64,000 bases of DNA from Chloroflexi bacterium HGW-Chloroflexi-6 (GTDB lineage: Bacteria > Chloroflexota > Anaerolineae > Anaerolineales > Villigracilaceae): positions 1 through 64,000 of the forward strand of contig PHBU01000018.1 in NCBI GenBank assembly GCA_002840685.1. Direction: 5' to 3'. The notes beneath the pieces are model-generated. The model was not told where the DNA came from. It saw nothing but the letters and a program-made list of their open reading frames with translations, and did not search any database. Both the position numbers and the translations under genes were made by a program. Shown one piece after another: positions 20,590-46,277 of this stretch. Position 1 is the stretch's first letter; every line of letters starts with the position of its first letter.

Positions 20590-20685
20590 ATGCCAGAATT
20601 ATTTGTTTTTATCACCATAACCATCTTTGCACTTGTCTCCTGGGGCTTGTTCAGCCTTTGCCAGAATCTTATGGAGACGAAATGA
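20590..20685 (+). CDS. 31-residue membrane peptide heading the kdp operon
   Basis: AGGAG precedes the ATG. The peptide is one hydrophobic helix (MPELFVFITITIFALVSWGL) and a short polar tail. Its TGA overlaps the kdpF start (ATGA), so translation is coupled. It is a second KdpF-like small subunit by position and form; homology cannot be judged at this length. Confidence 0.65.
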   Translation: MPELFVFITITIFALVSWGLFSLCQNLMETK

Positions 20686-20765
20686 TCACTTTCGCTGCAA
20701 TCCTTGCTGCCGTCCTGCTGATCTATCTTGGTGCGGCGCTACTCAAACCGGAGTGGTTCGAATGA
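20682..20765 (+). CDS. kdpF: Kdp potassium ATPase small subunit
   Basis: A 27-residue single-span protein (hydrophobic helix, then ALLKPEWFE) with the size and tail of KdpF, which stabilises the KdpABC complex. It overlaps both neighbours by ATGA junctions, the usual arrangement at the head of kdp operons. Confidence 0.82.
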   Translation: MITFAAILAAVLLIYLGAALLKPEWFE

Positions 20766-22483: not shown

Positions 22484-22484
22484 A

Positions 22485-22588
22485 TGTCATTGCGAACGAA
22501 GTGAAGCAATCTCCTACCGAACGGAAAATCCCGTTAAACGGGAGATTGCTTCGGGCTTCACAAAGAACGTTCAGCCCTCGCAATGACA
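22485..22588. repeat. Large palindromic dispersed repeat between kdpA and kdpB
   Basis: Outer arms TGTCATTGCGA (22485-22495) and TCGCAATGACA (22578-22588) are perfectly inverted. Inner arms AATCTCC/GGAGATT flank a central stem-loop (AACGG...CCGTT). The GAAGCAATCTC / TCATTGCGA words are typical of intergenic repeats common in many environmental bacterial genomes. Confidence 0.85.
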
Positions 22589-22613
22589 TGAGAAATGACA
22601 CTGGAAAACAAAA

Positions 22614-24755
22614 ATGACAACCGATTTACATCGTCCAAAATTTTTCAATCGTGAGCTTTATCTGCGCGCCCTGAGTGACGCAGTGATCAAACTCGACCCG
22701 CGCCGCATGTTACGCAACCCGGTTATGTTCATCGTCGAGATCGGCAGCGCGCTGACCAGCCTGCTGTGGATTCAAGCCCTGTTGGGCCAGGGCGAGGCTC
22801 CGGCCTGGTTCATCGGCCTGATCAGTATGTGGCTGTGGTTCACCGTGCTGTTTGCCAACTTTTCCGAAGCCCTGGCTGAAGGGCGTGGCAAAGCCCAGGC
22901 CGACGCACTGCGCCGCACCCGCAAACAGACCAGCGCCAAACGTCTGCGCCAGCCCCACCGCCCCGGCGTTCCTTTTGGGAAGCACGAAGCGAATGTTGAA
23001 CTGGTTTCCTCCACCGACCTGCGCAAAGGGGATTGTTTCCTTGTCGAAGTCGGTGACATCATCCCGGCCGATGGCGAAATCGTCGAAGGCATTGCTTCGG
23101 TCGATGAAAGTGCTGTGACCGGTGAATCGGCCCCGGTTGTGCGCGAAGCGGGCGGCGATCGCAGCGCCGTCACCGGAGGGACGCGCATCCTGTCGGACTG
23201 GCTGGTGATCCGCGTCAGCGCCGACCCCGGCGAAGGGTTTTTAGATCGCATGATCGGGTTGGTCGAAGGCGCAAAACGCCAGAAAACGCCCAACGAAATC
23301 GCGCTTAACATCCTGCTGGCCGGGTTCACCATCATTTTTCTGGTTGTGACTGCCACGCTGCTGCCGTTTTCACAGTATAGTGTGCTGGCTGTCGGGCAAG
23401 GTTCGCCCGTCACCCTGCCGGTGCTCATCGCCCTGCTGGTCTGTCTGATTCCGACTACCATCGGCGGGCTGCTTTCAGCCATTGGCATTGCGGGCATGGA
23501 CAGGCTGATCCAGCGCAATGTCATCGCCATGTCTGGCCGGGCGGTGGAAGCCGCCGGGGATGTGGATGTGCTGCTGCTCGACAAAACCGGCACCATCACC
23601 CTCGGCAACCGCCAGGCGGTAGACTTGATTCCCGTTGGCGGGGTGACTTTGCAGGAACTGGTTGAGGCGGCCCAGTTGGCTTCTTTGGCGGATGAAACGC
23701 CCGAGGGTCGTTCGATTGTCATCCTCGCCAAGGAAAAATATGGCTTGCGTGGCACCCCCCTGTCATCCCCCCATTTGCGGCGAAACCCGGCCGAAAATGG
23801 GGGCAACGAGGGCGGCGGCGCTCATTTCATCCCCTTTACTGCCCAGACGCGCATGAGTGGCGTCGATGTTGACGGTGTCCAAATCCGCAAAGGCGCGCCC
23901 AACACAATGATGGAACTTGTCAGCCAGAGCGGCAACCTGCTCCCCGCAGATCTGAAACCAGTCGTTGACCAGATTGCCCGCACCGGCGGTACGCCGCTGG
24001 TGGTGACGCGCGACAACCTCGTCCTGGGCGTGGTGCATCTCAAGGATATTGTTAAAGGCGGCATCAAGGAGCGCTTTGCGCAGTTGCGCAAAATTGGGAT
24101 CAAGACGGTGATGATCACCGGGGATAACGCCTTGACCGCCGCTGCCATCGCCGCCGAAGCCGGGGTGGATGACTTTCTGGCGCAGGCCACGCCCGAAGCC
24201 AAGCTTAAACTCATCCGCGAATACCAGGCGGGTGGGCGGCTGGTCGCCATGACTGGCGACGGCACCAACGATGCCCCCGCGTTGGCCCAAGCCGATGTGG
24301 CCGTGGCGATGAACACCGGCACCCAGCCCGCCCGCGAAGCCGCCAACATGATCGATCTGGATAGCAACCCCACCAAACTGATCGAGATCGTTGAAATCGG
24401 CAAGCAACTGCTGATGACGCGCGGCGCGCTGACCACCTTCAGCATTGCCAATGATGTCAGCAAATACTTTGCCATCATCCCGGCAGCCTTTGCGGGCACC
24501 TACCCGGCCCTGGGCGCGCTCAATTTTATGCAGCTTGCCACGCCCCAAAGCGCCATTCTCTCAGCCGTGATCTTCAACGCGCTGATCATCATCGCTCTCA
24601 TCCCGCTTGCCCTGCGCGGCGTGCCCTATCGCCCCGTTCCCGCCGAGCGTCTGCTACGCGATAACCTGCTGATTTACGGTCTCGGCGGCCTGATTGCGCC
24701 TTTCATTGGCATCAAAGTGATTGACATGCTGTTGGTGTTGTTCAAACTGACCTAA
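22614..24755 (+). CDS. kdpB: Potassium-transporting P-type ATPase, catalytic subunit
   Basis: This 713-residue P-type ATPase drives KdpA. Visible motifs: TGES actuator loop ([12 protein letters not shown]), phosphorylation site [15 protein letters not shown] and KGA of the nucleotide domain, TGDN and the hinge [18 protein letters not shown]. The family is usually about 680-700 residues. The extra length includes [18 protein letters not shown] in the nucleotide-binding domain, between RSIVILAK... and HFIPFTAQ. This stretch is encoded by the same palindromic repeat as in kdpA. kdpC follows after 11 bp. Confidence 0.97.
23761..23815. repeat. Palindromic repeat inserted in frame in kdpB
   Basis: GTCATCCCCCCATTT ... 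GAAAATGGGGGCAACGAGG encodes [18 protein letters not shown]. It is the same element, orientation and frame as 21229-21277 in kdpA, with a slightly longer centre. Confidence 0.85.
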
Positions 24756-24766
24756 AAGGATTTCTT

Positions 24767-25330
24767 ATGACCTCCCACCTTCGCCCTGCCCTTGTGCTTT
24801 TTCTCCTGCTGACCGTTCTCACCGGAGCGTTCTACCCGTTGGTTGTGACCGCCATTGCCCAGGCTGTTTTTCCCGACCAGGCCAACGGTTCGTTAATCAT
24901 CGTCGAAGGCCGGACTCTCGGCTCCGGGTTGATTGCCCAACCCTTTGGCGATCCCCGTTACTTTTGGGGACGCCCCTCCGCTGCCGGGTACAACGCTTCA
25001 GCCTCCTCCGGTTCCAACCTGGGAACCAACAACCCGGCGCTGATCGAGGTCGTTCAGGCCCGCATTGACGCGCTCCACGCTGCCGACCCGGACAACACCG
25101 CTCTCATCCCTGTGGATTTGGTCACAGCCTCCGGCTCCGGCCTCGACCCGCACATCAGCGTCGCAGCTGCTCTCTACCAGGTTTCCCGCGTTGCCAGGGT
25201 GCGCGGACTCGATGAAGCTCGGGTCAAAGATCTTGTGACACAATACACCGAAGAGCGTCAGTTTTTTATCCTCGGCCAGCCGCGCGTCAACGTGCTCAAG
25301 CTCAATTTGGCGCTGGATGAATTGTATTAA
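24767..25330 (+). CDS. kdpC: Potassium-transporting ATPase subunit C
   Basis: A 187-residue KdpC, which bridges KdpA and KdpB and assists ATP use. One N-terminal membrane helix ([17 protein letters not shown]) precedes the periplasmic domain. Family words GSxLIG-like [30 protein letters not shown] and [10 protein letters not shown] are all visible. AAAAGG lies before the ATG. It is followed 12 bp later by the KdpD-like membrane gene. Confidence 0.96.
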
Positions 25331-25342
25331 AAAGAAAGGTAT

Positions 25343-26107
25343 ATGATGAAAAAGCTCAGCTTTTTGCATTTATCTCGTTTGGCAAAGGATTCGTTTGCCG
25401 CTGTTCTCTCCGTTGCTGGCACAGCGTTAATCCTCTTCCTGGTGCGCCGGGACGTGGTCGGCGAGGGTGTAATTTCCCTGATATTCCTGATGCCTGTGGT
25501 CTGGGCTGCGTATCACTGGGGGCTGGGGGCAGGGATGAGCGCGGCCCTCTCGGCTGCGCTCATGTTCAACTTCCTTTTCATCCCGCCTTTTTACACCTTT
25601 ACGATTGCCAGGCCGGAAGGCATCCTGATTTTTGTGATTTTTTTTGCGGTTGCAATCATTGTAGTGGAGCGCATCCAGTCCACCCTGTCCAGGGCACAGG
25701 CCAGCGAACGGGAAGCCGTGCTGATGTACGAATTCAGCACTCTGTTGGCCGGCTTACGCTCCCAGGATGCGATCACCCGCAGTGTGGCGCGCTTTATTCG
25801 ACAGCGATTGATGGCAGAACTGGTTGTCGTTGTCATCCAACTTAAAGGCCAGGAAAGGCAAACCAGCGCCCGCGAACCGCAAGATAAAACCATGACGGCC
25901 AAACCCGACTGCTTGCTGCCGATTCTCAATTCATGGGGCTTGGTTGGGGAGATTCAGATCTGGCGCGGCGATGAAATCGCACTTCCTTCAGTGGAGAGCC
26001 GTCTGATGCGTAATATCACTTTGCAAATTGGCCTAGCAATCGAGCGCATACAAATCACAGAGTTCGAGTTCCAGCGCGCCTCCGCACGCGAAAGCACCCA
26101 CAATTAA
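25343..26107 (+). CDS. KdpD-like membrane protein (DUF4118 + GAF-like), no kinase domain
   Basis: A 254-residue protein with four membrane helices (about residues 15-105) carrying the DUF4118 signature of KdpD (VWAAYHWGLGAG, FNFLFIPPFYTFTIARPEG). A coiled segment and GAF-like domain follow (YEFSTLLAGLRSQDAI ...). There is no histidine box or ATPase domain. Its membrane part resembles residues ~400-500 of the full KdpD encoded next, so it may be a partial duplicate that senses K+ or turgor, or that forms mixed dimers with KdpD. It lies 12 bp after kdpC. Confidence 0.8.
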   Translation: MMKKLSFLHLSRLAKDSFAAVLSVAGTALILFLVRRDVVGEGVISLIFLMPVVWAAYHWGLGAGMSAALSAALMFNFLFIPPFYTFTIARPEGILIFVIFFAVAIIVVERIQSTLSRAQASEREAVLMYEFSTLLAGLRSQDAITRSVARFIRQRLMAELVVVVIQLKGQERQTSAREPQDKTMTAKPDCLLPILNSWGLVGEIQIWRGDEIALPSVESRLMRNITLQIGLAIERIQITEFEFQRASARESTHN

Positions 26108-26223
26108 ACAATTTTGCGATCCAATCCTGCGCTACAATAAAGATAACAGGCCCTCTAATTTCTGATATCAGGTAAAACCATTTTTCTTTAAACTCGGCGC
26201 CTGATCCCTGAAGTAGAAAATAC

Positions 26224-28899
26224 ATGCCAAACTCAGCCCCCCGTCCTGACCCTGACCAGCTCCTCGCCCAAGTTCAAAAGGAGGAGATAGCTGCCGCACG
26301 CGGCAAGCTTAAAATATTTCTTGGCTATGCCGCCGGCGTGGGCAAGACTTTTTCAATGCTTGAAGCTGCCCATCAGCGCCGCGGCGAAGGCGTGGATGTG
26401 GTTATTGGTTACATTGAAACTCACAAACGCGCCGAAACCGAAGCCCTGGTCGCCGGGCTGGAGATTGTCCCCCGCAAGCAGATCGAATATCACAATGTAA
26501 CCCTGTCTGAAATGGATGTGGACGCCATTCTCGCCCGCCATCCCAAACTGGTATTGGTGGATGAACTCGCCCATACCAATGCCCCCGGTTCGCGCCACCC
26601 GAAACGCTATCAGGATGTTTATGAACTGCTTGATGCCGGGGTCGATGTGTATACCACCCTCAACATCCAGCACTTGGAAAGCCTTAACGATGTTGTGGCA
26701 CAAATCACGGGGGTCTTGGTGCGCGAGACCATTCCCGACAAGGTTATCGATGAGGCCAGTGAACTCGAACTGATCGACCTGCCGCCTGATGAACTGCTGA
26801 CTCGCCTCACAGATGGAAAGGTTTATCTGCCAGAGCAGGCCGCGCGCGCTATCGATAAATTTTTCCGAAAGGGCAATCTAACCGCCCTGCGCGAGATGAC
26901 TCTGCGCCGCGCAGCAGAAAGAGTCGATGGTCAGATGCGCGCCTATATGCGTTCACTCGCCATCAATCAGGTCTGGGCGGCTGGCGAGCATATTGCAGTC
27001 TGCGTCAGCCCCAGCGGATTGGGAGAGCGCCTTGTTCGCTCCGCCCGCCGCCTGGCGGATGAACTCAACGCCGACTGGATGGCCGTTTACGTTGAGACGC
27101 CAGCTCACCTGGCCTTGCCGCAGAAAAAGCGCGAACAAGTGGCCCGTACCCTGCGCCTGGCTGAAGAACTTGGTGCGCGCGTCAAGGTTATTCCATCGAC
27201 TGGTACGGCTAAATCTGTTGCCAAAACCATTCTGGAGTATGCCCGCAAACACAATGTCACCAAGATTGTGGCTGGCAAACCTATCCGCCCGCGCTGGTTC
27301 GATTTGCTCCGAGGTTCACTGGTGGATGAACTTATTTATCGAAGCGGCGATATTGATATTTACGTGATTACCAGCTCCGAACCAGCCCGCATTCCCGCGG
27401 AAGAGAACCCATTTCATCGGCATAGTTCGTTTAGCCGCTATCTATGGAGCATGGCGCTGGTCATTGCCCTCACTATTTTGGGGCAATTTTGGGGTCGTGA
27501 ATTTTCGCCCACCAATCTTGCCATGCTTTACTTGATCCCGGTTGTGATTGCGGCTGTTTTTTTAGGGCGTGGCCCATCTATCCTGGCTTCTGTTCTTGGG
27601 GTGCTCGCCTTTGATTTCGTTTTTGTTCCCCCGTTTTACACGTTTGCGGTTTCCGATACAGAATATTTCCTGACGTTTATGGTGATGCTCGTGGTCGGGC
27701 TTGTGATAAGCGCCCTGGCTGTCAGGGCGCGGGAACAAGCTGATGCCGCCCAGCGCCGCGAATCTGATACCGCCGCGCTCTATGCGCTTAGCCGGGATTT
27801 CGCCGCTGCGGAAGGTTTGGAATCTGTTATTAAGGCGATCCGAACGCATCTTGCCCCGGAATTTGGGCAAGATGTGGTTGTTTTCCTACCCAAAGGAGAT
27901 TCATTGGTTCTGTACGAGGATTCCAATAACTCCCCTTTGCCTGATTCCCGTGAAACTGAATTGAGTCTGGCCCTGTGGTCATACCGGAATGCACAATCTG
28001 CGGGGTATGGCACCAATACGCTGCCCGCTGCTGATGCGCTCTATTTGCCATTAAAAACATCCCGGCAGATGGTGGGTGTGTTAAGCATTAAACCCATTCA
28101 CGCCGGGCAACAACTGACAACCGAGCAGCGCCGCCTTATGGAAGCATTTGCCAGCCAATCGGCCCAGGCGATCGAGCGCGTTCATTTGGCCGAGCAATCA
28201 CGGCAAATCAAATTGCTGCAATCGACAGAAAAATTACAGAATGCCCTGATTAACTCCATTTCGCATGATCTGCGCACGCCCCTGGTTTCGATCACTGGCG
28301 CGTTGACATCCTTGGATGAGCAAGAGAAAAGCCTGGCTCCCGAAAAGAAGCGCAGTTTAATACGGACTGCCCGGGGAGAAGCCGATCGCTTAAACCGCCT
28401 GGTGAGCAATTTGCTCGATATGACCCGCCTAGAAGCGGGGGCGCTTAACATCAAGCCCAAGCCATCAGACGTTCAGGATGTGATCGGAACATCCATCGGT
28501 CAGTTCGATGCCCGTTTAACGGGGCGCAATGTGCGGGTGGATGTTCCCGCCGCGTTTCCGCTGGTCAGCCTGGATTTTGTTCTCATTGTCCACGTTTTGA
28601 ATAATGTGATTGATAACGCGCTAAAATATTCTCCCGAAGGGTCGCCGCTCGATATTCAGGCGCGGGTAATCGCAAACGAAGCCCACGTCAGTGTGCTTGA
28701 CCGGGGTCTGGGCATCCCTGAAGGCGACATGGAGCGTGTTTTCGACAAGTTTTACCGCGTCCAGCGCCCGGAGCAGGTGACCGGAACCGGTTTGGGCCTG
28801 GCAATTTCTAAAGGGATTTTGGAAGCGCACGGCGGGCGCATTTGGGCCAGGAACCGCGAGGGCGGCGGGACGGTGGTCACAATTGCCCTGCCGATATAG
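26224..28899 (+). CDS. kdpD: Osmosensitive K+ channel sensor histidine kinase
   Basis: An 891-residue full-length KdpD. Domains in order: N-terminal KdpD domain with Walker-A-like GYAAGVGKT and VDELAHTN (about residues 25-235); universal-stress-protein-like domain (~250-375); four membrane helices/DUF4118 (~395-500); GAF (~520-650); HisKA with SISHDLRTP (~675); and HATPase (NALKY, DRGLGIP, GTGLGL). It phosphorylates KdpE when K+ is scarce. The gap of 116 bp from the previous gene allows a separate promoter. Confidence 0.97.
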   Translation: MPNSAPRPDPDQLLAQVQKEEIAAARGKLKIFLGYAAGVGKTFSMLEAAHQRRGEGVDVVIGYIETHKRAETEALVAGLEIVPRKQIEYHNVTLSEMDVDAILARHPKLVLVDELAHTNAPGSRHPKRYQDVYELLDAGVDVYTTLNIQHLESLNDVVAQITGVLVRETIPDKVIDEASELELIDLPPDELLTRLTDGKVYLPEQAARAIDKFFRKGNLTALREMTLRRAAERVDGQMRAYMRSLAINQVWAAGEHIAVCVSPSGLGERLVRSARRLADELNADWMAVYVETPAHLALPQKKREQVARTLRLAEELGARVKVIPSTGTAKSVAKTILEYARKHNVTKIVAGKPIRPRWFDLLRGSLVDELIYRSGDIDIYVITSSEPARIPAEENPFHRHSSFSRYLWSMALVIALTILGQFWGREFSPTNLAMLYLIPVVIAAVFLGRGPSILASVLGVLAFDFVFVPPFYTFAVSDTEYFLTFMVMLVVGLVISALAVRAREQADAAQRRESDTAALYALSRDFAAAEGLESVIKAIRTHLAPEFGQDVVVFLPKGDSLVLYEDSNNSPLPDSRETELSLALWSYRNAQSAGYGTNTLPAADALYLPLKTSRQMVGVLSIKPIHAGQQLTTEQRRLMEAFASQSAQAIERVHLAEQSRQIKLLQSTEKLQNALINSISHDLRTPLVSITGALTSLDEQEKSLAPEKKRSLIRTARGEADRLNRLVSNLLDMTRLEAGALNIKPKPSDVQDVIGTSIGQFDARLTGRNVRVDVPAAFPLVSLDFVLIVHVLNNVIDNALKYSPEGSPLDIQARVIANEAHVSVLDRGLGIPEGDMERVFDKFYRVQRPEQVTGTGLGLAISKGILEAHGGRIWARNREGGGTVVTIALPI

Positions 28900-28906
28900 G
28901 TGAGCC

Positions 28907-29593
28907 ATGACTGAAAATTTCCCCCGCATTCTGATTGTGGATGATGAACATCCCATTCGGCGATTCTTGAGCGATTCGTTGGATGAGCAATATACAATTG
29001 TTGAAGTTGCCAACGGGAAAGATGCCATCCGTGCTGCCGCTGCCGAACGTCCCGATCTAATTATCCTCGACCTGGGGCTGCCCGATATGGATGGCGTCGA
29101 GGTGACCCGCCGCCTGCGCGAGTGGTCTCAGACGCCCATCATTATTGTGTCGGTACGCGAGCAAGAAAATGACAAAATTGCCGCGCTTGATGCCGGGGCC
29201 GATGACTACCTGACCAAACCGTTTGGCATTGGCGAGCTTTTGGCGCGCATTCGTACTGTGTTGCGCAGAGTAACCAAGGATGATACCGAGCCGGTTTTTA
29301 TCAGCGGGGATTTGACGATGGATTTTACGCTGCGCACCGTTGCCGTGGGCGGGCAACCGATCACGCTTACACCCACCGAATACGATTTGCTCAAAACATT
29401 TATAAAGCACGCTGGCAAGGTGCTCACCCACCGGCAGTTGCTACGCATGGCCTGGGGCAATAGTTATGAAAATGAAATCCACATTTTGCAGGTCAATATC
29501 AGCAATCTGCGGCGTAAAATCGAGCCAGACCCTTCCCGCCCGACTCACATCATCACTGAACCAGGGGTGGGGTATCGGTTTCGGATGGAGTAG
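28907..29593 (+). CDS. kdpE: Kdp operon response regulator, OmpR family
   Basis: A 228-residue response regulator. The receiver has VDDEHPI, the phosphoacceptor in LILDLGLPD and the conserved Lys in YLTKPFG. The C-terminal winged helix has LTPTEYDLLKTF ... HRQLLRMAWG ... VNISNLRRKIE ... GVGYRF. It starts 7 bp after kdpD and is surely its partner. The direct repeats at 20504-20546 upstream of the operon are its likely binding site. Confidence 0.96.
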   Translation: MTENFPRILIVDDEHPIRRFLSDSLDEQYTIVEVANGKDAIRAAAAERPDLIILDLGLPDMDGVEVTRRLREWSQTPIIIVSVREQENDKIAALDAGADDYLTKPFGIGELLARIRTVLRRVTKDDTEPVFISGDLTMDFTLRTVAVGGQPITLTPTEYDLLKTFIKHAGKVLTHRQLLRMAWGNSYENEIHILQVNISNLRRKIEPDPSRPTHIITEPGVGYRFRME

Positions 29594-37106: not shown

Positions 37107-37784
37107 TTACCCTGACAGATCGTTCGTGGAAGTTTGAGTTTCCTTATATTGCCCTGTAACCACGAATTCCGTTCGTTCGCAGATATTGGTCACACGGTCG
37201 GCGAAGCGCTCCAGGTTGTGGGCTGCCCAGAGCAGCCAGTTGGCGTGTTCGATACTGCGTGGATCGGCCACGATAAAGGTCATTAACTCACGGTAGATTT
37301 GCACATAGAGCTGATCCACCAAATCATCTTCAGCCGGGATAAGGCGCGCGCTTTCAGCATCTTCGTTGACAAAGGCTGCCAGGGCGCGATGGAGCATGCT
37401 GACTCCTTGCTCGGCCATGCGCGGCATATCCACCAATGGCTTGAGCAGCGGCTCGCTGCCCATCCGGAGATTGATCACGCCAATGCCTTTGGCATAATCG
37501 CCCATACGCTCCAACTCACCGATCACTTCCAGGATGGATGCCAGTACGCGCAAGTCGCGCGCCATGGGCTGCTGGGTGGCGATCACGATCATGACACGGT
37601 TTTCGAGTTCGAAGCGCTTCTCGTTGATGGTTTTATCCCCGAGAATGACTTTTTCTGAGAGAGCCAAGTCACGTTTTTTGAGCGCTGTCACCGAATCAAG
37701 CAGGGCCTGCTCTGCCAAACTTCCCAGGATCAGGATTTCATCTTTAAGTTCTTGCATTTCGTGTTCAAAAGTTGTCCGAACCAT
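37107..37784 (-). CDS. phoU: Phosphate transport regulator PhoU
   Basis: A 225-residue PhoU with two three-helix repeats, each with the metal-binding E/DxxxD pattern (ELERMGDYAKGIG and NLERFADRVTNI). It links PstSCAB activity to the PhoR kinase and represses the Pho response in high phosphate. The ATG at 37784 has GGAG upstream and begins MVRTTFEHEMQEL, the family start; an ATG four codons earlier is possible. It is the last gene of the pst operon. Confidence 0.95.
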   Translation of the reverse strand: MVRTTFEHEMQELKDEILILGSLAEQALLDSVTALKKRDLALSEKVILGDKTINEKRFELENRVMIVIATQQPMARDLRVLASILEVIGELERMGDYAKGIGVINLRMGSEPLLKPLVDMPRMAEQGVSMLHRALAAFVNEDAESARLIPAEDDLVDQLYVQIYRELMTFIVADPRSIEHANWLLWAAHNLERFADRVTNICERTEFVVTGQYKETQTSTNDLSG

Positions 37785-37856
37785 ACCATTCTCCATTCTT
37801 GAATCTGGCGCATCGCGCTTGATTCTTTGTTCGCGTTGTAAGTTTTAAATCCCAAC

Positions 37857-38315
37857 TTAGTTGTCTTGAGCTATTTTGGCAGACTCAATACCCTGTTCGC
37901 GCAGCCAGGATCGGATTTTTTCAGCCATCTGATCGCGAATAACGCGTACTTTGGCCAAAACTTCGTCCGGTGCGCCCTCAATGGCGGCAGGGTCTTCAAA
38001 GGGCCAGAACAGGTGTTTGCCCATGCTCAAAAAAACGCGCGGGCATTTCTCCTCGGCCCCGCCGCAGACGGTGACCGTATAGGCAAAGGTGACTTTCCCC
38101 AGGTACTCGTTAACGCTTTTGGAGTGTTGACCCTCCATCGGCAGGCCGATTTCGTTCATAACGGTACGCACAACCGGGTGGATTTCGCCTTTGGGTTCCA
38201 GTCCCGCACTGAAAACATCGAAATGCTCGCCGGCAAAAGCGCGCAAAAATGCCTCGCCCATCTGGCTGCGGGCCGAGTTGCCCGTGCAAAGGAATAAGAA
38301 TTTCGGTTTGCTCAT
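37857..38315 (-). CDS. arsC: Arsenate reductase / low-molecular-weight phosphatase family
   Basis: A 152-residue protein with the P-loop LCTGNSARSQMGEAFLR (Cys-x5-Arg plus Ser) and the further cysteine in TVCGGAEEKCP typical of thioredoxin-coupled arsenate reductases. It ends at ELREQG-like helices. The start at 38315 is one base after the pstB stop (TAGAATG), so it is co-translated within the pst operon. Since Pst systems admit arsenate, a detoxifying partner makes sense. A true tyrosine phosphatase role is less likely because of the extra cysteines. Confidence 0.88.
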   Translation of the reverse strand: MSKPKFLFLCTGNSARSQMGEAFLRAFAGEHFDVFSAGLEPKGEIHPVVRTVMNEIGLPMEGQHSKSVNEYLGKVTFAYTVTVCGGAEEKCPRVFLSMGKHLFWPFEDPAAIEGAPDEVLAKVRVIRDQMAEKIRSWLREQGIESAKIAQDN

Positions 38316-38316
38316 T

Positions 38317-39102
38317 CTAGCCAAACCTTCCTGTTACGTAATCTTCGGTGCGTTTGTCGCTGGGGCGGGTGAAGATGATATCGGTTTTATCGTATTCGAT
38401 GACCGTGCCCGAGCGGGTTTCCCCGTGGAGCATCATCATGGCAGTGAAATCAGAAACGCGCGCGGCCTGCTGCATGTTATGGGTGACGATGATGATGGTG
38501 TAATTTTGTTTGAGTTCCTGCATTAATTCTTCAATGCGCAGGGTCGAGATAGGGTCGAGTGCCGAGGCGGGTTCATCCATCAGAATGATCTCGGGCTGGA
38601 TGGCGATCGTGCGGGCGATGCACAGGCGCTGCTGCTGGCCGCCCGAAAGGGCATAGGCGCTTTGCTTGAGTTTGTCTTTGACTTCATCCCATAGTGCCGC
38701 GGCCCGCAGAGATTGCTCAACCAGTTCATCCATGTTGCCTTTGAAGCCGTTGATGTGCGCGCCCCACGAGATGTTCTCGTAGATGGACTTTGGAAAAGGG
38801 TTGGGCTTCTGGAAGACCATCCCGATCCGGCGGCGGACTTCAACCGGGTCGATTTCCTTGCTGTACAGGTTGGTGCCGTGCAGCAGAATTTCTCCGTGGA
38901 CGCGGCTGGTGGGCACAAAATCGTTCATGCGGTTGAAGGCGCGCAGCAAGGTCGATTTGCCGCAGCCCGAAGGGCCGATGATGGCAGTGATCTTGCCTTT
39001 TTCGATTTGCAGGTTGACACCCTTCACGGCTTCAAAAGAACCGTAATAAATGCTTAGATCGCGGGTCTCGATGGCATATTGTGGGTTGTTTTCAGGTTGC
39101 AT
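38317..39102 (-). CDS. pstB: Phosphate ABC transporter ATP-binding protein
   Basis: A 261-residue ATPase that powers PstCA. Walker [10 protein letters not shown], signature [13 protein letters not shown], Walker [12 protein letters not shown] and the family end [10 protein letters not shown] are all present. Spacing to pstA is 18 bp. Confidence 0.97.
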
Positions 39103-39120
39103 GGTTATATCTCTCTTGCT

Positions 39121-40356
39121 TTAATATTTTCTCTGCAGGCGGTTGCGCAGCAAAATGGCAGTGGCGTTGAGGGTCAGGAGCAATACCAGCAGAACGAGGA
39201 TCGCTGCCGCAGCAATGGCGTGGAACTCTCCCTGGGCGCGCGAGGTCCACTGGTAGATTTGGATCGGCAGGGCGGTGAATTTGCTGAACAAGCCACTCGG
39301 ATCGACACTGATGAAGGTCGAAGCGCCGACGATGATCAGCGGCGCGGTTTCGCCAACGGCGCGCGACATGGCCAGGATGCTGCCTGTCAGAATACCCGGC
39401 AGGGCATTGGGCAGCACGTGGCTCCAGACAGTCTGCCAGCGGGTTGCGCCGACTCCGTAGGCCGCCTGGCGGATTGAATCGGGTACGGCTTTGATCGCTT
39501 CCTGGGCATTGATGATGACCAGTGGCAAAACGAGGATGCCCATGGTCAGCCCGGCGGAGAGGATGGTGCGCCCGTTTGAATCGGTCACGCCGAACAACGC
39601 GCCGCTGGTCAGGGCTTCCAGCGTGCGGACGAAGATTGCCAGGCCGAGCATCCCATACACAATCGAGGGCACGCCGGCCAGGTTATTGATGTTGGTTTGG
39701 ATAATTTTGAAGAGCAGGCTTTTCTTGCTGGCGTATTCCTGCAAATAGATCGCCGCACCCACCCCGACCGGCAGGGCAAACGAGATGGCGATGCCAACCA
39801 GCCACATCGAGCCAAACAGGGCGGTGCGCACCCCGGCAAATTCGGCTTTACTCGACATGGGCGTGCTCAGAAACTCGGGGGTCAGCCACGAGCGAAATTC
39901 CAGGCGCGCGTCTGGGAATTTCTCGGCAACCTCGGCTTCAAGTTCAGCTTTTTTCAGGATCGAATCGAAGAGCGGATACGTTTCGAGTGTCTTGATCTGG
40001 ATGATGCGCTCGATGACCAGGTTGTACAGCTCGCCCTGGCCGCGTTTTTCCATGGCGGTTTCATTGTCCAGTTTGTTGTATGCGCCGCGCGAAAGGTTTG
40101 TCTTGAGAACCGCGATCAATTCTTCTTTATTCAGCTCATCGAGCGGTTTTTCGCTGATCAGCGCCGGGTCTTTCTTGAATTCATAAGCCACGTAGCCGAA
40201 GGCGCCATCCATCACGTTTAAAACCAGGGCGGAAAGGCTTAAAATCGCGATCAGCAGGGCCGAAAGGAAGATGATCTGCCAGATCCAGGCTGTACGGTAA
40301 CGGCTGGCAACGAAATTTTCCAGCTCGTTCTTTGGGGGGTAAGTGTATTTTTCCAT
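39121..40356 (-). CDS. pstA: Phosphate ABC transporter permease PstA
   Basis: An integral membrane permease of about 411 residues. The start is either the ATG at 40356 (chosen, MEKYTYPP) or a GTG at 40377 that overlaps the pstC end. The binding-protein-dependent transport signature is seen in RQAAYGVGATRWQTVW. After the first helix there is a ~120-residue charged extracytoplasmic insertion (about residues 55-175: EEL-, KKAELEAEVAEK) that is absent from the short E. coli-type PstA. Six core helices follow. Confidence 0.95.
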   Translation of the reverse strand: MEKYTYPPKNELENFVASRYRTAWIWQIIFLSALLIAILSLSALVLNVMDGAFGYVAYEFKKDPALISEKPLDELNKEELIAVLKTNLSRGAYNKLDNETAMEKRGQGELYNLVIERIIQIKTLETYPLFDSILKKAELEAEVAEKFPDARLEFRSWLTPEFLSTPMSSKAEFAGVRTALFGSMWLVGIAISFALPVGVGAAIYLQEYASKKSLLFKIIQTNINNLAGVPSIVYGMLGLAIFVRTLEALTSGALFGVTDSNGRTILSAGLTMGILVLPLVIINAQEAIKAVPDSIRQAAYGVGATRWQTVWSHVLPNALPGILTGSILAMSRAVGETAPLIIVGASTFISVDPSGLFSKFTALPIQIYQWTSRAQGEFHAIAAAAILVLLVLLLTLNATAILLRNRLQRKY

Positions 40357-40360
40357 CGGG

Positions 40361-41308
40361 TTACTCGTATTGCTCACGGAATTTTGAAACGATCCATTGG
40401 CTGACCAGGTTCAAGACCAATGTCACCAGGAAGAGCATCAGCGCAATCGCGAACAGGCTGTTGTAGTCGATGGTGTTGTATGAGAGATCGCCGCCGCTGA
40501 TGCGGGCAATGTGGGCGGTCATTGTTTCAGCCGCTTCAAGTGGATTGAATGTGAATTTGGATGTCGCGCCTGAGGCGACTGCCACGATCATGGTTTCGCC
40601 GACCGCGCGCGAAATGCCAACGATGATGGCTGCGCCGATCCCCGAAAGCGCCGCCGGCAGGATGACCTGCGTGCTGGCCTCGAAGCGGGTCGCTCCCATG
40701 GCGTAGGCCGCTTCGCGCAGCGAATTGGGGACAGCGCTCAGGGCATCCTCGCTCATCGAAGAGATCAAGGGCAGGATCATGATACCCATCACGATGCCGG
40801 CTGAGAGCATGTTGTAAACCCCCAGGGTATCTTCGCCAATCAGGCTGCGCAGGATGGGAGTTACAAAAAGCAGGGCAAAAAAACCGTACACCACGGTTGG
40901 GATGCCTGCCAGAATTTCCAAGACAGGTTTAAGGACAGATCGGGCGCGCGGGCTGGCATATTCGCTCAAGTAGATGGCGGCGCTCATCCCGAGCGGCAGG
41001 GCGACCAACATCGCAATTGCGCTGGTGGTCAGGGTGGCGCTGATCAGCGCCCAGATGCCGAATTGTCCGATCGCGGGCTGCCACTGGGTGGTCAGGAAAA
41101 ATTCTGCGAAGCTTACTTGCGGGTCGTTGAAAAACAACAAAGCCTGGTCGCCCAGGACAATTACAATGCTGACCGTAATAAAAATTGTCAGGAACCCCAC
41201 CAGGAACAGGGATATTTCAATGATGCCTTCCCCAAGCCGCATTTTGCGTTTCAGGTTGCCGGGCTGAAAGGCAGCGGGCGCGAGAATTTTTTTCTGTGTT
41301 TCTTCCAT
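40361..41308 (-). CDS. pstC: Phosphate ABC transporter permease PstC
   Basis: A 315-residue permease partner of PstA with six membrane helices and the ATPase-contact loop LREAAYAMGATRFEAS. The ATG at 41308 is preceded by AGGA at 10 nt; a TTG three codons earlier is less likely. It follows pstS after a strong intercistronic hairpin. Confidence 0.96.
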   Translation of the reverse strand: MEETQKKILAPAAFQPGNLKRKMRLGEGIIEISLFLVGFLTIFITVSIVIVLGDQALLFFNDPQVSFAEFFLTTQWQPAIGQFGIWALISATLTTSAIAMLVALPLGMSAAIYLSEYASPRARSVLKPVLEILAGIPTVVYGFFALLFVTPILRSLIGEDTLGVYNMLSAGIVMGIMILPLISSMSEDALSAVPNSLREAAYAMGATRFEASTQVILPAALSGIGAAIIVGISRAVGETMIVAVASGATSKFTFNPLEAAETMTAHIARISGGDLSYNTIDYNSLFAIALMLFLVTLVLNLVSQWIVSKFREQYE

Positions 41309-41341
41309 AATTTGCAAATCCTGATCACATCCGATAGATTT

Positions 41342-41374
41342 GGGCTGGCCTCACTTTTTGAGAGAGGCCAGCCC
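41342..41374 (-). promoter_or_regulatory. Intercistronic hairpin between pstS and pstC
   Basis: GGGCTGGCCTC (41342-41352) and GAGGCCAGCCC (41364-41374) are perfectly complementary with an 11-nt loop. No T run follows on the minus strand. Such hairpins stabilise the binding-protein message relative to the permease genes. Confidence 0.8.
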
Positions 41375-41397
41375 TGGGAAGAGTATTTTCTTGCAGT

Positions 41398-42276
41398 TTA
41401 TTGGCTAACAGCCGCGTACCAGGCGCCCCAGGCGGAGTAAATGGCGCTCTTGGGAGCGGGGAAGTAACCGACATCGATGATGTTGTCATCGAGCTGGCCC
41501 AGGTAGAAGCCAATGAACGCGGCCACCTGCGGTTTTTCCTGCATGATCTGGGCGGTGGAGTAGATGAAGAGCGGGCGGGCCAGAGGATAGGTACCGTTAT
41601 CGACATTGGCCTGGGTGGGTTCGACATCGTTGACAGCCAGGGCTTTGAGAGTATCGGTATTTTCGTTGAAGTACGCGTAACCAAAGTACCCGATGGCATA
41701 CTGGTCGCCAGCCACACCCTGGACGAGAACGTTGTCATCTTCGGAGAACTGGGTGCCTTCGAGACCAAGCAGGGCGGCTTCGCCAGCATCGATGTCGGCT
41801 TTGCCATCGGCATTCTTGAAGTGGGGGGCCATGACAGCTTCGACGAAGTAGTCGAAGGTGCCAGAGTCAGCGCCCGGGGAGTAGACTTTGATGGCTTCGG
41901 CGGGGAATTCGGGGCGCAGGTCTGCCCAGGTCTTGGCTTCGCCAGAGAAGATCATGGCAAGTTCTTCGGTGGTCAGGGCGGTGGCGAACTCGTTCTGGGA
42001 TGAGACAACTACGGCCAGAGCGTCAGTCCCGACACGGAACTCAAGCGGTTCGCGGCCGATGGCCTGGCAGGCTTCTTTTTCACTGGCCTTGATGGCGCGC
42101 GAGGCGTTAGCGATATCGCTTTCACCGGCCACGCAGAAGCGTTCGAAACCAGCGCCGGTACCGATGCTGTCGACGGTGATGTTGCCGGTGTAGCCTTCGT
42201 TCTGGAACAGTTCGGCCATACGCTCGGAAACCGGGAAGACGGTTGATGAACCCGCGCTGATGATGTCGCCGCTAAC
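41398..42276 (-). repeat. PstS coding repeat, unit 2
   Basis: Second copy of the 894-bp coding repeat, encoding residues 367-658 and ending at the stop codon. Confidence 0.95.
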
Positions 42277-43374
42277 GGCGGACGGGTCAACCGAAAATTC
42301 CTGGGTGGAGAGCCATGCGCCCCAGGCGGAGTAGATGGCCTTGGCGGGGGCGGGGAAGTAACCGACATCGATGATGTTGTCATCGAGCTGGCTCAGGTAG
42401 AAGGCGATGAACGCGGCAACCTGGGGTTTCTCCTGCATGATTTTGGCGGTGGAGTAGATGAAGAGCGGGCGGGCCAGGGGGTAGGTGCCGTTATCGACAT
42501 TGGCCTGGGTGGGTTCGACATCATTGACGGCCAGGGCTTTGAGAGTATCGGTATTTTCGTTGAAGTAGGCATAACCGAAGTAACCAATGGCGTACTGATC
42601 GCCAGCCACACCCTGGACGAGCACGTTGTCATCTTCGGAGAACTGGGTGCCTTCAAGACCAAGCAGGGCGGCTTCACCAGCATCGATGTCGGCTTTGCCA
42701 TCGGCATTCTTGAAGTGGGGGGCCATAACGGCTTCAACGAAGTAATCGAAGGTGCCAGAGTCAGCGCCGGGGGAGTAGACCGAAATCTTGCCATCCGGGT
42801 AAGCCGGGTTCAGTTCGTTCCAGTTGGTCACCTGGCCGGAGAAGATCTTGGCGAGTTCTTCGGTGGTGATGTTGGTGGCGAAGTCATTCTGGCTGGAGAC
42901 GACCACGGCCAGAGCGTCAGTCCCAACACGAAACTCGAGCGGTTCGCGGCCGATGGCCTGGCAGGCTTCTTTTTCGCTGCCTTTGATGGCGCGGGAAGCG
43001 TTCGAGATGTCGCTTTCACCAGCCACGCAGAAGCGTTCGAAGCCAGCGCCGGTGCCTATGCTGTCGACGGTGATGTTGCCGGTGTAGCCTTCATTCTGGA
43101 AGAGTTCGGCCATGCGCTCGGAAACCGGGAAGACGGTTGATGAGCCAGCCGTGATAATGTCGCCGCTAACTTCATCGGGCAGCATGGCGTAGGGCAGCAC
43201 GATGGGCAGAATCTCTTCTTCCATCGGGGCTTCGGCGGAAGTGGCTTCAGCGCTGGGAGCCTCGCCAGCGGGCGCTTCCGTGGCCGGGACTTCGGTTGCG
43301 GGTGCGCCGCAGGCAGCCAGCGCCAGGCTGGCGATGATCAATGTGGCAAAAATAATGAGCAGGTTTTTACGCAT
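41398..43374 (-). CDS. pstS: Tandem-duplicated phosphate-binding lipoprotein PstS
   Basis: A 658-residue lipoprotein. The signal peptide ends at lipobox LAAC (Cys22), followed by an Ala/Pro/Glu linker to residue 68. Two complete PstS domains follow (69-366 and 367-658), each with GSSTVFPVSE, GTGAGFERFC, VGTDALAVVV and SPGADSGTFDYF. By eye they differ at about 25 of ~288 positions, mostly clustered in one ~40-residue stretch after SSQN. Around 110 residues from VYSPG onward are identical. Normal PstS has one domain of 300-350 residues. AGAGGA lies before the ATG; a Pho box lies upstream. Confidence 0.96.
   Translation of the reverse strand: MRKNLLIIFATLIIASLALAACGAPATEVPATEAPAGEAPSAEATSAEAPMEEEILPIVLPYAMLPDEVSGDIITAGSSTVFPVSERMAELFQNEGYTGNITVDSIGTGAGFERFCVAGESDISNASRAIKGSEKEACQAIGREPLEFRVGTDALAVVVSSQNDFATNITTEELAKIFSGQVTNWNELNPAYPDGKISVYSPGADSGTFDYFVEAVMAPHFKNADGKADIDAGEAALLGLEGTQFSEDDNVLVQGVAGDQYAIGYFGYAYFNENTDTLKALAVNDVEPTQANVDNGTYPLARPLFIYSTAKIMQEKPQVAAFIAFYLSQLDDNIIDVGYFPAPAKAIYSAWGAWLSTQEFSVDPSAVSGDIISAGSSTVFPVSERMAELFQNEGYTGNITVDSIGTGAGFERFCVAGESDIANASRAIKASEKEACQAIGREPLEFRVGTDALAVVVSSQNEFATALTTEELAMIFSGEAKTWADLRPEFPAEAIKVYSPGADSGTFDYFVEAVMAPHFKNADGKADIDAGEAALLGLEGTQFSEDDNVLVQGVAGDQYAIGYFGYAYFNENTDTLKALAVNDVEPTQANVDNGTYPLARPLFIYSTAQIMQEKPQVAAFIGFYLGQLDDNIIDVGYFPAPKSAIYSAWGAWYAAVSQ
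42277..43170 (-). repeat. PstS coding repeat, unit 1
   Basis: First copy of the repeat, encoding residues 69-366. The VSGDI start codons of the two units are exactly 894 bp apart. Confidence 0.95.
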
Positions 43375-43436
43375 TTCTCTTTTCCTCTTGTGAGTTTTTC
43401 TTTAGATTTTTTTGTTTGCCTGTTTATTTTCTCATC

Positions 43437-43480
43437 TGTCTGTTAAGGACACTGCAAGGATGGTTTAACATTCGGTTAAC
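43437..43480 (-). promoter_or_regulatory. Pho box upstream of pstS
   Basis: On the minus strand four hexamer-like sites are spaced by 11 bp: GTTAAC, GTTAAA, CTTGCA, CTTAAC. Three of four fit the TTAAC-type direct repeats bound by PhoB/PhoP proteins. It lies ~65 bp before the pstS start. Confidence 0.78.
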
Positions 43481-43508
43481 GATTTGGCATATAAAAGGCA
43501 GCCTTAAA

Positions 43509-43540
43509 TGCGTAACGCCCCTGGAATGGGGCATTACGCA
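43509..43540 (-). terminator. Hairpin after phoR
   Basis: TGCGTAA-c-GCCCC pairs with GGGGC-a-TTACGCA around TGGAAT, with a weak T-rich tail (ATTTAAGG) on the minus strand. It separates phoBR from pstS. Confidence 0.6.
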
Positions 43541-43570
43541 GTGAAAAAGGTTTTTCAAATAAGCGAATTT

Positions 43571-44824
43571 TTAGTGTATTGGGATGGTAAAGCAGAAAGT
43601 GCTGCCATCGCCTTCGCGGCTTTCGGCCCAGATTTTACCGCCGTGAGCTTCAACCAGGTGTCGGGCGATGGACAATCCCAGGCCGGTGCCGCCGCCGCTG
43701 CGTGAGCGATCTACACGATAAAAACGCTCAAAGATTCGCGGCAGATCGTCGGCCGGGATGCCGGGACCGGTATCTTGCACCAGGAAACGGACAAACTGCC
43801 CATCCGGTAGCGCAGACAATGTCACTTCACCGCCAGGCGGGGTGAACTTGACCGCATTGTGGATCAGGTTGACCAGAACCTGTTCAAGACGGGGTAAATC
43901 GGCGCGGATCAGCGGCATATCGCCAGAATAATCCACTTTCAGGGTAAGCCCGGCTCGCTCGGCCTGGGTTCTCATCCGGTCGGCGGCCGAGCTTAGCAGG
44001 CTGGCCGGAGAGATGGGTTTCAAGTCGAGCGGCACCTGACCCGATTCGATTCGCGAGAGTTCGAGCAATTCTGTGGCCATTTGCGTGAGCGCGTCCACTT
44101 CAGTCTGGATGCGGCCCAGAAAACGGTGTGCGGCGGGCGGGTCTTCGAGCGCGCCCTCCTGCAGGGTTTCAGTCAGGGCTTTTAGCGAAGCCAGCGGGGT
44201 GCGCAACTCGTGCGAAACATTGGAGATAAAGTCGCGCCGGACGGTTTCAAGGCGGCGCAGGCGCGTCAGGTCATGGATCAGCAAAATTGCTCCCCCGGCA
44301 TGCTGGTCAGGGATGGCGATCAGCTGCAGGAATTTGCGCGTGAAGGGCACCTCGACCGAATCGCTTTGGACTTCACCGCTTTGTTGACACTTGCGCCAGG
44401 TTTCGATCAACTGGTGGTGGCGCAAGGCAACGCTGACAGATTTCCCGATCAGCGTTTTGCCCTCGCCGAAGAGTTTGTCTGCGGCAGGGTTGGTCATCTG
44501 GATGCGCCCATCGGGATCGGCAATTAGAACGCCATCTGTAATTTGTGTCAGGGTGGCTTCGAGGCGGGTGCGCTCGGCATCCAACGCCAAAATTTGCAGG
44601 TCAAAGGTCTGAATCAGAGTGCGGACAGACCCCGAAAGATTTGTGAGATTCTCTATATCGGCAGGCAGGTCTACGGGAGAAAGGCTGCCCTCTGCGGCGC
44701 GGCGGATGGCACGGGCATAATTATCCGTGCTGCGGCGCAGGGAAAGATATCGCCAGCATATCCAGCCCAAGGCCAGGCTGAGCAGGAGAACCAAGATCAG
44801 CAGAAACCAGGAAATGGTATTCAT
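43571..44824 (-). CDS. phoR: Phosphate regulon sensor histidine kinase
   Basis: A 417-residue kinase with one N-terminal membrane helix ([20 protein letters not shown]), a PAS domain ([20 protein letters not shown]), HisKA with the phospho-acceptor His in [14 protein letters not shown], and HATPase (NAVKFTP, DTGPGIP, GTGLGLS). There is no large sensory loop, as expected for PhoR, which senses via PstSCAB-PhoU. The ATG at 44824 overlaps the phoB stop (ATGA). Confidence 0.94.
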
Positions 44825-45534
44825 CCTTCGAAACGATAGCCGCCGCCGCGAACGGTGACGATCCGGGTTGGGTTGGCCGCATCTTTTTCGATCTTTTGAC
44901 GCAGCCAACGGACATGGACATCGACCGTGCGGCTGTCTCCGATATAATCCCAGCCCCAGACGCGTTCAAGAATGAATTCGCGCGAGAGCATCTGGCCTTT
45001 GTGTTCGGCAAAGAACAGCAGCAGGTCATATTCCTGCGGTTTGAGGGCCAGGGGTATGGCATCAAGGGTTGTTTCGCGGCGCGTATGGTTGATGGCCAGG
45101 TTCCCGAAGATGAGTATGTCTTGGTTGGGGGCGCTGGTTTTGAGTCTGCCAAGTTCTTCGCGGATGGTCTCGGTGCGGCGGAGTTGGGCTTTGACTCGCG
45201 CGATCAGCTCGCGCATGGAGAAAGGTTTGGTGACATAATCGTCCGCGCCGATTTCGAGGCCAACAACGCGGTCGATTTCGTCGTCTCGAGCGGTCAGCAT
45301 GATGATGGGAGATTGAAAGCCCTCGCGCCGAAGAATTTTGCAAACTTCGACTCCATCCAACTGCGGAAGCATGATGTCGAGCAGGATCAGGTCCGGTTTG
45401 CGCCGCCTGGCCGTTTCGAGCGCTGTTTTTCCGTCCCCGACAGCGTCGACGGTATATCCATGCTTTTGCAGGTTGTAGGCGAGGGTCTCTTGCAGAGAGG
45501 GTTCATCTTCAACGATAAGTATGTTTTCTGGCAT
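44821..45534 (-). CDS. phoB: Phosphate regulon response regulator
   Basis: A 237-residue OmpR-family regulator. The receiver has VEDEPSLQ, the phosphoacceptor in [10 protein letters not shown] and YVTKPFS; the winged helix has [12 protein letters not shown] ... [20 protein letters not shown] ... [12 protein letters not shown] precedes the ATG. A pair of TTAAC repeats in its promoter implies autoregulation, and the pstS Pho box is its obvious target. Confidence 0.94.
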
Positions 45535-45596: not shown

Positions 45597-45625
45597 AAAC
45601 TTTGGAAAGTTGCTGAATAGAAAAA

Positions 45626-45657
45626 GGAACGGGCTGTAACAAGCCCCGTTCCTTTTT
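45626..45657. terminator. Bidirectional terminator
   Basis: GGAACGGG-CT pairs with AAGCCCCGTTCC with T runs on both sides (TTTTT each). It ends the riboswitch-controlled 71-residue gene on the minus strand. Confidence 0.85.
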
Positions 45658-45675: not shown

Positions 45676-45891
45676 TTACCCAATCAAGAAAGCGAGCAAA
45701 CGCAAGGGCGCCTTGAAGATGGCGGTCCATCCAGACTGCTGGGCTCCCTTTGTCCTTGGAGTTGCCAGGGATGCGTATTCGTTTATCATCTGAAATCGCC
45801 GCTTTTCGTGCTCGTGAGCTGCAATTTTGATTTCGTAAGCGCTTCTCCAGGCAGAGCGTTTTTCTGGAATCATGTTATTGAAGTTATACAT
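45676..45891 (-). CDS. 71-residue protein behind a c-di-AMP riboswitch
   Basis: AAGGAG lies 6 nt before the ATG. The protein starts MYNFNNMIPEKRSAW, has a charged helix (EIKIAAHEHEKRRFQMINEY) and ends in a short hydrophobic/amphipathic helix (WTAIFKAPLRLLAFLIG) that could sit on the membrane. Family not recognised. It is monocistronic, between a riboswitch and a terminator. Since c-di-AMP riboswitches usually control K+ import, osmolyte or wall genes, this small protein may take part in osmotic or envelope homeostasis; that is inference. Confidence 0.8.
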   Translation of the reverse strand: MYNFNNMIPEKRSAWRSAYEIKIAAHEHEKRRFQMINEYASLATPRTKGAQQSGWTAIFKAPLRLLAFLIG

Positions 45892-46006
45892 TGTGTTCTC
45901 CTTAAATTAAAAAACAAGTCTTTTTCCATCCGACATTTCCCTTCGCAGTGTGCGAAGCCTCACGACTCAAAACACCCATTGGAAAGGTATTTCTTGTGTG
46001 ATCTTC

Positions 46007-46113
46007 GACGCCTACGAGGTTAGCTGTCGGGCTGGAGCAGAAGACTTGCTCTATAACGCAGTTGCGCTATTTCGCCCCGGAAGTGGGTTCCCCGATCAAT
46101 AGATTCGGCGTTC
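46007..46113 (-). ncRNA. Cyclic-di-AMP riboswitch (ydaO-yuaA class)
   Basis: On the minus strand the conserved blocks appear in order: ACGCCGAATC, CGGGGAACCCA, GGGGCGAA, a variable hairpin, then CAGCCCGACAGCTAACCTCG and GGCGTC. P1 pairs ACGCC (46111-46107) with GGCGT (46012-46008). This matches the ydaO-yuaA aptamer, where bound c-di-AMP usually switches expression off. A CTTCGCA/TGCGAAG hairpin and T-rich stretch between aptamer and ATG may form the expression platform. Confidence 0.93.
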
Positions 46114-46133
46114 AACAATCAAATTACTCTATC

Positions 46134-46162
46134 AATATAACATAGTGCGCCAGATTCCGCAA
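46134..46162 (-). promoter_or_regulatory. Promoter of the riboswitch transcript
   Basis: On the minus strand TTGCGG (46162-46157) and TATATT (46139-46134) are separated by 17 bp, about 20 bp before the aptamer. Confidence 0.6.
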
Positions 46163-46277
46163 TAAATCGGCCAATGTTTATGCAAAAAGTACCCTTTTGG
46201 GCGAGATGCTGTGCATCGTATCTTGCTGGATCGCTCGAAGAATATCTGCACTGATCGTCCGATACCAGTCAGATAAA

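Follow-up and report, generated by a model that had tools for sequence, protein, structure and literature searches.

Introduction

Riboswitches that sense c-di-AMP are regarded as turning uptake and wall genes OFF. The c-di-AMP riboswitches of Bacillus subtilis ydaO (PMC5575661) and of the B. thuringiensis kdp operon (PMC6488665) are both of the OFF type. The position of the aptamer relative to the terminator is reported to set the direction of control with the same logic in Na+ and c-di-AMP riboswitches, an aptamer that overlaps the terminator stem giving an ON switch and an aptamer that stands apart from it giving an OFF switch; the c-di-AMP example in that work stands apart and is OFF (White et al., PMC9337991). 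The Na+-I (DUF1646) riboswitch of Clostridium acetobutylicum kefB has an aptamer that overlaps the terminator stem and is ON (PMC9337991). Small proteins are also among the targets of ligand-activated leaders, as the cyanobacterial ON glutamine riboswitch drives gifB/IF17, a small inhibitor of glutamine synthetase, and also controls DUF4278 small proteins (PMC6316151). We found no published report of an ON c-di-AMP riboswitch in the literature covered, which is an incomplete coverage and does not prove absence.

Here we describe a leader from Chloroflexi bacterium HGW-Chloroflexi-6, located in a window of 64,000 nt (the whole stretch of DNA that was analysed; contig PHBU01000018.1, positions 1-64,000, forward strand). 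It shares aptamer sequence and structure, as well as transcriptional control by an intrinsic terminator, with the ydaO/yuaA leaders of B. subtilis ydaO/kimA and ktrAB and of B. thuringiensis kdpFABC. Unlike in those leaders, the 5' strand of the terminator lies inside the aptamer and the platform is predicted to be inverted, as in the kefB leader, from which it differs in aptamer and ligand. The target is an orphan small protein, whereas the ydaO/yuaA class controls transporter, osmolyte, or cell-wall genes. With the glutamine riboswitch of gifB/IF17 the locus has in common a riboswitch, here predicted to be ligand-activated, in front of a small protein; this is an analogy only; ligand, aptamer, and protein family differ, and an enzyme target is established for IF17 alone.

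Results

The features of the locus are collected in Table 1. The initial annotation had described a ydaO-yuaA aptamer with its own promoter that leads only to a tiny gene and a terminator, and each of these parts was recovered. The aptamer, 127 nt long, covers the full covariance model above its gathering score. It is the sole Rfam match in the window and the only RF00379 match across the 5.26-Mb genome; the Kdp system of the same window (20627-29593) is indeed without an RF00379 match, as had been stated. A phoB-phoR-pst-phoU type operon (37107-45534, minus strand) lies directly downstream of the riboswitch unit. The host encodes one diadenylate cyclase domain (DAC, PF02457; G000:C27:27283-27648, E 1.2e-39), and the class assignment suggests that the aptamer would bind c-di-AMP.

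Table 1. Positions of the elements of the riboswitch unit within the window, in the direction of transcription
Feature	Position	Strand	Evidence
Near-palindrome CCCAAAAGGGTA, possible operator	46190..46201	-	26-28 nt upstream of -35 in several relatives
-35 element TTGCGG	46157..46162	-	TTGC-type -35 and 17-nt spacer in most of 11 related loci
-10 element TATATT	46134..46139	-	kept directly upstream of aptamer in relatives
c-di-AMP riboswitch aptamer (ydaO/yuaA, RF00379)	45994..46120	-	cmscan 72.5 bits (gathering score 38), E 6.7e-15, full model 1-134
Terminator 5' strand (predicted), inside aptamer, GAGCAAGUCUUC..CCCGACAGCUAACCUCGUAGGCGUCGAAG	46003..46051	-	MFE folds, shuffles, swap test
Local hairpin CUUCGCA-CAC-UGCGAAG, predicted anti-terminator	45941..45957	-	downstream-only folds
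UGUCGG, partner of aptamer core CCGACA	45930..45935	-	compensatory changes in L069, L062, L017
AAGACUUG, partner of aptamer CAAGUCUU, terminator closing stem	45915..45922	-	7-9 pairs in 10/11 loci
U-tract of riboswitch terminator	45909..45914	-	UUUU or longer, same place, in 10/11 loci
Shine-Dalgarno AAGGAGAA of small gene	45896..45903	-	sequence; AGGAG invariant in alignment
71-aa small protein gene	45676..45891	-	homologues behind same leader; dN/dS; no known family
Intrinsic terminator after small gene	45624..45654	-	hairpin of -16.7 kcal/mol, then T-run; equivalents in 9/9 loci

The promoter TTGCGG-17-TATATT was not flagged by a generic single-sequence promoter scan; we regard it as more than chance because relatives share the -35/-10 arrangement directly 5' of the aptamer. 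The near-palindrome upstream of it is present in L001, L003, L004, L013, L014, and L017 at a fixed distance to the promoter. As a marker of a regulon it was rejected, since its 5 exact genome matches compare with 9 for a reversed control and it is not enriched.

All 152 genomes of the GTDB family were searched for RF00379 and for the small protein. The riboswitch is carried by 12 genomes, in one copy each, and in nine of these loci a related ORF of 69-77 aa stands at the same place and the whole unit of promoter, aptamer, gene, and terminator is found; the small frame is thus retained behind the riboswitch, as would be expected if the initial annotation was right. The remaining three loci have a NuoB-like gene instead of the small ORF. 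A profile of the nine proteins recovered exactly those nine riboswitch genomes (E below 1e-24), with one further, non-significant match (0.016) that is interrupted by a stop, and no family genome had the small protein without the riboswitch. Additional protein matches were found neither in a 301-genome sample of the order (three-sequence profile) nor in a 298-genome sample of the class, and viral contigs contained no relative. An order-wide riboswitch search did yield two more leaders of the same type, L069 and L062, both in another family. The 82-aa protein of L069 is a clear homologue (HMM E 1.4e-10), and that of L062 (69 aa) is indistinguishable from shuffled sequences in the profile comparison.

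In all 11 leaders (nine of the family, L069, and L062), the 5' strand of the terminator is the aptamer's own 3' half, and in none does the terminator stand apart from the aptamer. For each of the nine family leaders, the MFE fold is a long hairpin: it closes at the U-tract, ahead of the Shine-Dalgarno sequence, and the aptamer from GAGCAAGUC to GUCGAAG supplies its 5' strand. The duplex between the aptamer half and the downstream segment is stronger than 500 of 500 dinucleotide shuffles at every one of the nine loci (z -3.6 to -6.3). When folded without the aptamer, the downstream segment forms local hairpins, most of which end elsewhere than at the U-tract, and has no comparable stem there; one of these hairpins, the predicted anti-terminator of Table 1, would hold terminator 3'-strand bases while the aptamer is folded.

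Covariation points in the same direction. The core pairing CCGACAG/UGUCGG is replaced by CCAGC/GCUGG in L069, CCGGCAG/CUGCCGG in L062, and GGCA/UGCC in L017, and it is weak in L004. Pairs of the closing stem were counted with the U-tract as the fixed reference, as MAFFT shifts this stem by one column in L003 and L004; L062 forms this stem via GCAAG/CUUGC and CUUC/GAAG, and the U-tract position of L069 reads UACCUUUUU. In a swap test, aptamers paired better with their own downstream segment than with swapped ones, and only 9 of 20000 permutations were as good; relatedness is ignored in both the swap test and the permutations. By structure prediction and covariation, bound aptamer and terminator thus appear to exclude each other, the anti-terminator hairpin offering an alternative fold. 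Because the 5' strand of the terminator is inside the aptamer, a bound aptamer should prevent termination and turn the gene ON. As such, the leader is predicted from sequence and folding models to be a ligand-activated (genetic ON) c-di-AMP riboswitch with an inverted platform, a direction of switching that the initial annotation had missed and that would set it apart from the tested c-di-AMP riboswitches in the literature covered.

The main competitor is an ordinary OFF switch like those of ydaO/kimA, ktrAB, and B. thuringiensis kdp, in which c-di-AMP would cause termination and the protein would be made at low c-di-AMP (K+ limitation), for example to aid uptake. Precedent speaks for it, as the c-di-AMP riboswitches with experimental tests in the literature covered are OFF (PMC9337991, PMC6488665, PMC5575661). 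However, the stem abutting the U-tract draws on bases required by the ligand-bound aptamer (the 3' strand of P1, the core, and the last hairpin), the downstream segment alone offers the local hairpins described above in place of a terminator at the U-tract, and the covariation favours pairing between aptamer and terminator. We therefore consider this alternative decidedly unlikely.

The platform comparison was extended to about 50 RF00379 loci. Pairing of the last 6 nt into the aptamer with a ddG of -15 to -28 kcal/mol was seen in small-protein leaders only, L069 being weaker than the others at -9.8 kcal/mol, and nearly all other loci had a stand-alone hairpin or a ddG of 0 to -8 kcal/mol. About 40 other c-di-AMP riboswitch loci lack the pairing between aptamer and terminator, three different-looking ones aside. 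L059, L064, and L065 have a large ddG without full pairing next to the U-tract and resemble Shine-Dalgarno overlap.

Several of these other loci are of interest in their own right. In L059 and L065, as also in L058 and L064, RF00379 precedes an ABC transporter gene, and in the first two the aptamer core can pair with a strand that overlaps the Shine-Dalgarno sequence (CCCGGCAG/CUGCCGGG; GCCCGUC/GACGGGU), which suggests translational ON control. In L002, L011, L012, and L039 the gene behind RF00379 is NuoB/Oxidored_q6-like (hydrogenase or complex-I-like), which is unusual as a target of a c-di-AMP riboswitch. L023 and L046 have a gene for a cyclic-di-AMP receptor (CdAMP_rec, PF06153) downstream, so that production of the receptor may depend on the messenger itself. 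L033 has a stand-alone terminator followed by a 48-aa ORF (MDIFATNYLARMEYEERLRQ...SLIRSLLLVFV), possibly another small protein under riboswitch control; its profile match to the small protein family is no better than that of shuffled sequences. In L037, L038, L040, L042, L043, L044, and L045 (possibly also L021 and L028), RF00379 and a stand-alone terminator are followed by a conserved, apparently non-coding region with an invariant, anti-Shine-Dalgarno-like CTTCTTCTCCTCCTTTTCGA beside a long hairpin. The region of this group matches no Rfam family, 14 of 31 pairs of its predicted structure are changed on both sides, and it looks like a c-di-AMP-controlled regulatory RNA.

The small gene itself is genuine and under purifying selection: in close gene pairs pN is well below pS, dN/dS is about 0.13-0.25 in most, and third-position changes are in excess. 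The neighbouring genes are unrelated and different in almost every small-protein locus, for which reason a conserved neighbourhood was dropped as a clue to function, and promoter, leader, gene, and terminator can be taken as one self-contained unit because the neighbours vary. This bears on the idea that the true target is the downstream phoB-phoR-pst operon and the small ORF a leader ORF. The gene of a PhoB-like regulator begins at 45534, likewise on the minus strand, and other RF00379 loci in the class precede PBP_like_2 substrate-binding proteins; against this, a strong intrinsic terminator intervenes, has equivalents 3' of the gene in all nine family loci, and follows an ORF that is selected as protein in otherwise unrelated surroundings, so that the operon is a very improbable target. 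That the transcript is chiefly a regulatory RNA with an incidental ORF, as its short, monocistronic form between riboswitch and terminator and the apparent control of non-coding RNAs by other RF00379 loci in the class might suggest, is hardly credible given the codon-level conservation in all close pairs and the invariant Shine-Dalgarno sequence.

The 71-aa protein matches no Pfam, NCBIfam, or PHROGs family above cut-off, the IF7/IF17 type included, and a profile search of the PDB gave two weak, chance-like matches only. AlphaFold (three sequences, a shallow alignment) predicts helices at residues 10-43 (pLDDT 93 in the middle) and 54-70 (about 60), in a model that is moderate overall (pLDDT 69, pTM 0.36). 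The N-terminal helix is charged, with the consensus EKRxxWRSAYEIKxAAxEHEKRR. The last 18 residues have a mean hydrophobicity of about 0.9 and a hydrophobic moment of about 0.5, and every stretch of 19 residues stays below the level of transmembrane segments (maximum KD19 1.16; 0.31 to 1.42 in relatives). The C-terminal helix of the initial annotation is therefore present as a prediction, but not as the typical hydrophobic transmembrane type; it is amphipathic, and the protein lacks the membrane-spanning helix of small transporter subunits or regulators of the KdpF type. It is likely that this helix attaches to the surface of the membrane or to a partner rather than spanning the membrane.

Discussion

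The best explanation of the locus, which we hold to be probable, is an autonomous, monocistronic c-di-AMP ON unit that makes a conserved two-helix small protein. In the proposed mechanism, a housekeeping-type promoter would start a leader that carries the ydaO-class aptamer. In the ligand-free state, the aptamer would give up its 3' half to the strand immediately 5' of the U-tract, and the long intrinsic terminator formed by this pairing would leave the gene OFF. When c-di-AMP is bound, the aptamer would retain its 3' half, the downstream strand would fold into local non-terminator hairpins, and RNA polymerase would continue into the 71-codon gene (ON), whose product would be a small protein with two predicted helices, a charged N-terminal and an amphipathic C-terminal one. 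In the absence of ligand, the terminator form of the window leader is computed at -83.8 kcal/mol and the aptamer-enforced form at -60.4 kcal/mol, about 23 apart, and because the terminator form is so much more stable, switching must be kinetic and would be decided co-transcriptionally. We infer that the leader switches in this way in vivo and that the protein binds a membrane or a partner.

The predicted inversion of the platform is the most unusual feature of this unit and has immediate consequences for the possible role of the protein. The notion of a new small effector, put forward in the initial annotation, stands, as the protein is conserved, unclassified, and exclusively associated with the riboswitch in the family. 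The role suggested there, inhibition or regulation of a membrane transporter, is a conjecture that the data do not single out. By analogy with IF17, it is conceivable, if speculative, that at high c-di-AMP the protein dampens the uptake of K+/osmolytes or some other activity linked to this messenger. The narrower proposal, that a small surface-acting protein made from the riboswitch only at high c-di-AMP switches off a transporter or an enzyme, be it for K+/osmolyte uptake or for a related activity at the membrane, is tentative and rather doubtful. If true, c-di-AMP signalling would have a negative-feedback effector arm under RNA control, separate from the protein receptors.

A c-di-AMP riboswitch of the ON type that occurs in nature and is conserved would be evidence that one and the same aptamer is open to rewiring through a shift of the terminator into it, and it would supply a ready-made c-di-AMP-inducible sensor. 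The small protein, in turn, would point to a so far unstudied effector of c-di-AMP signalling in these Anaerolineales.
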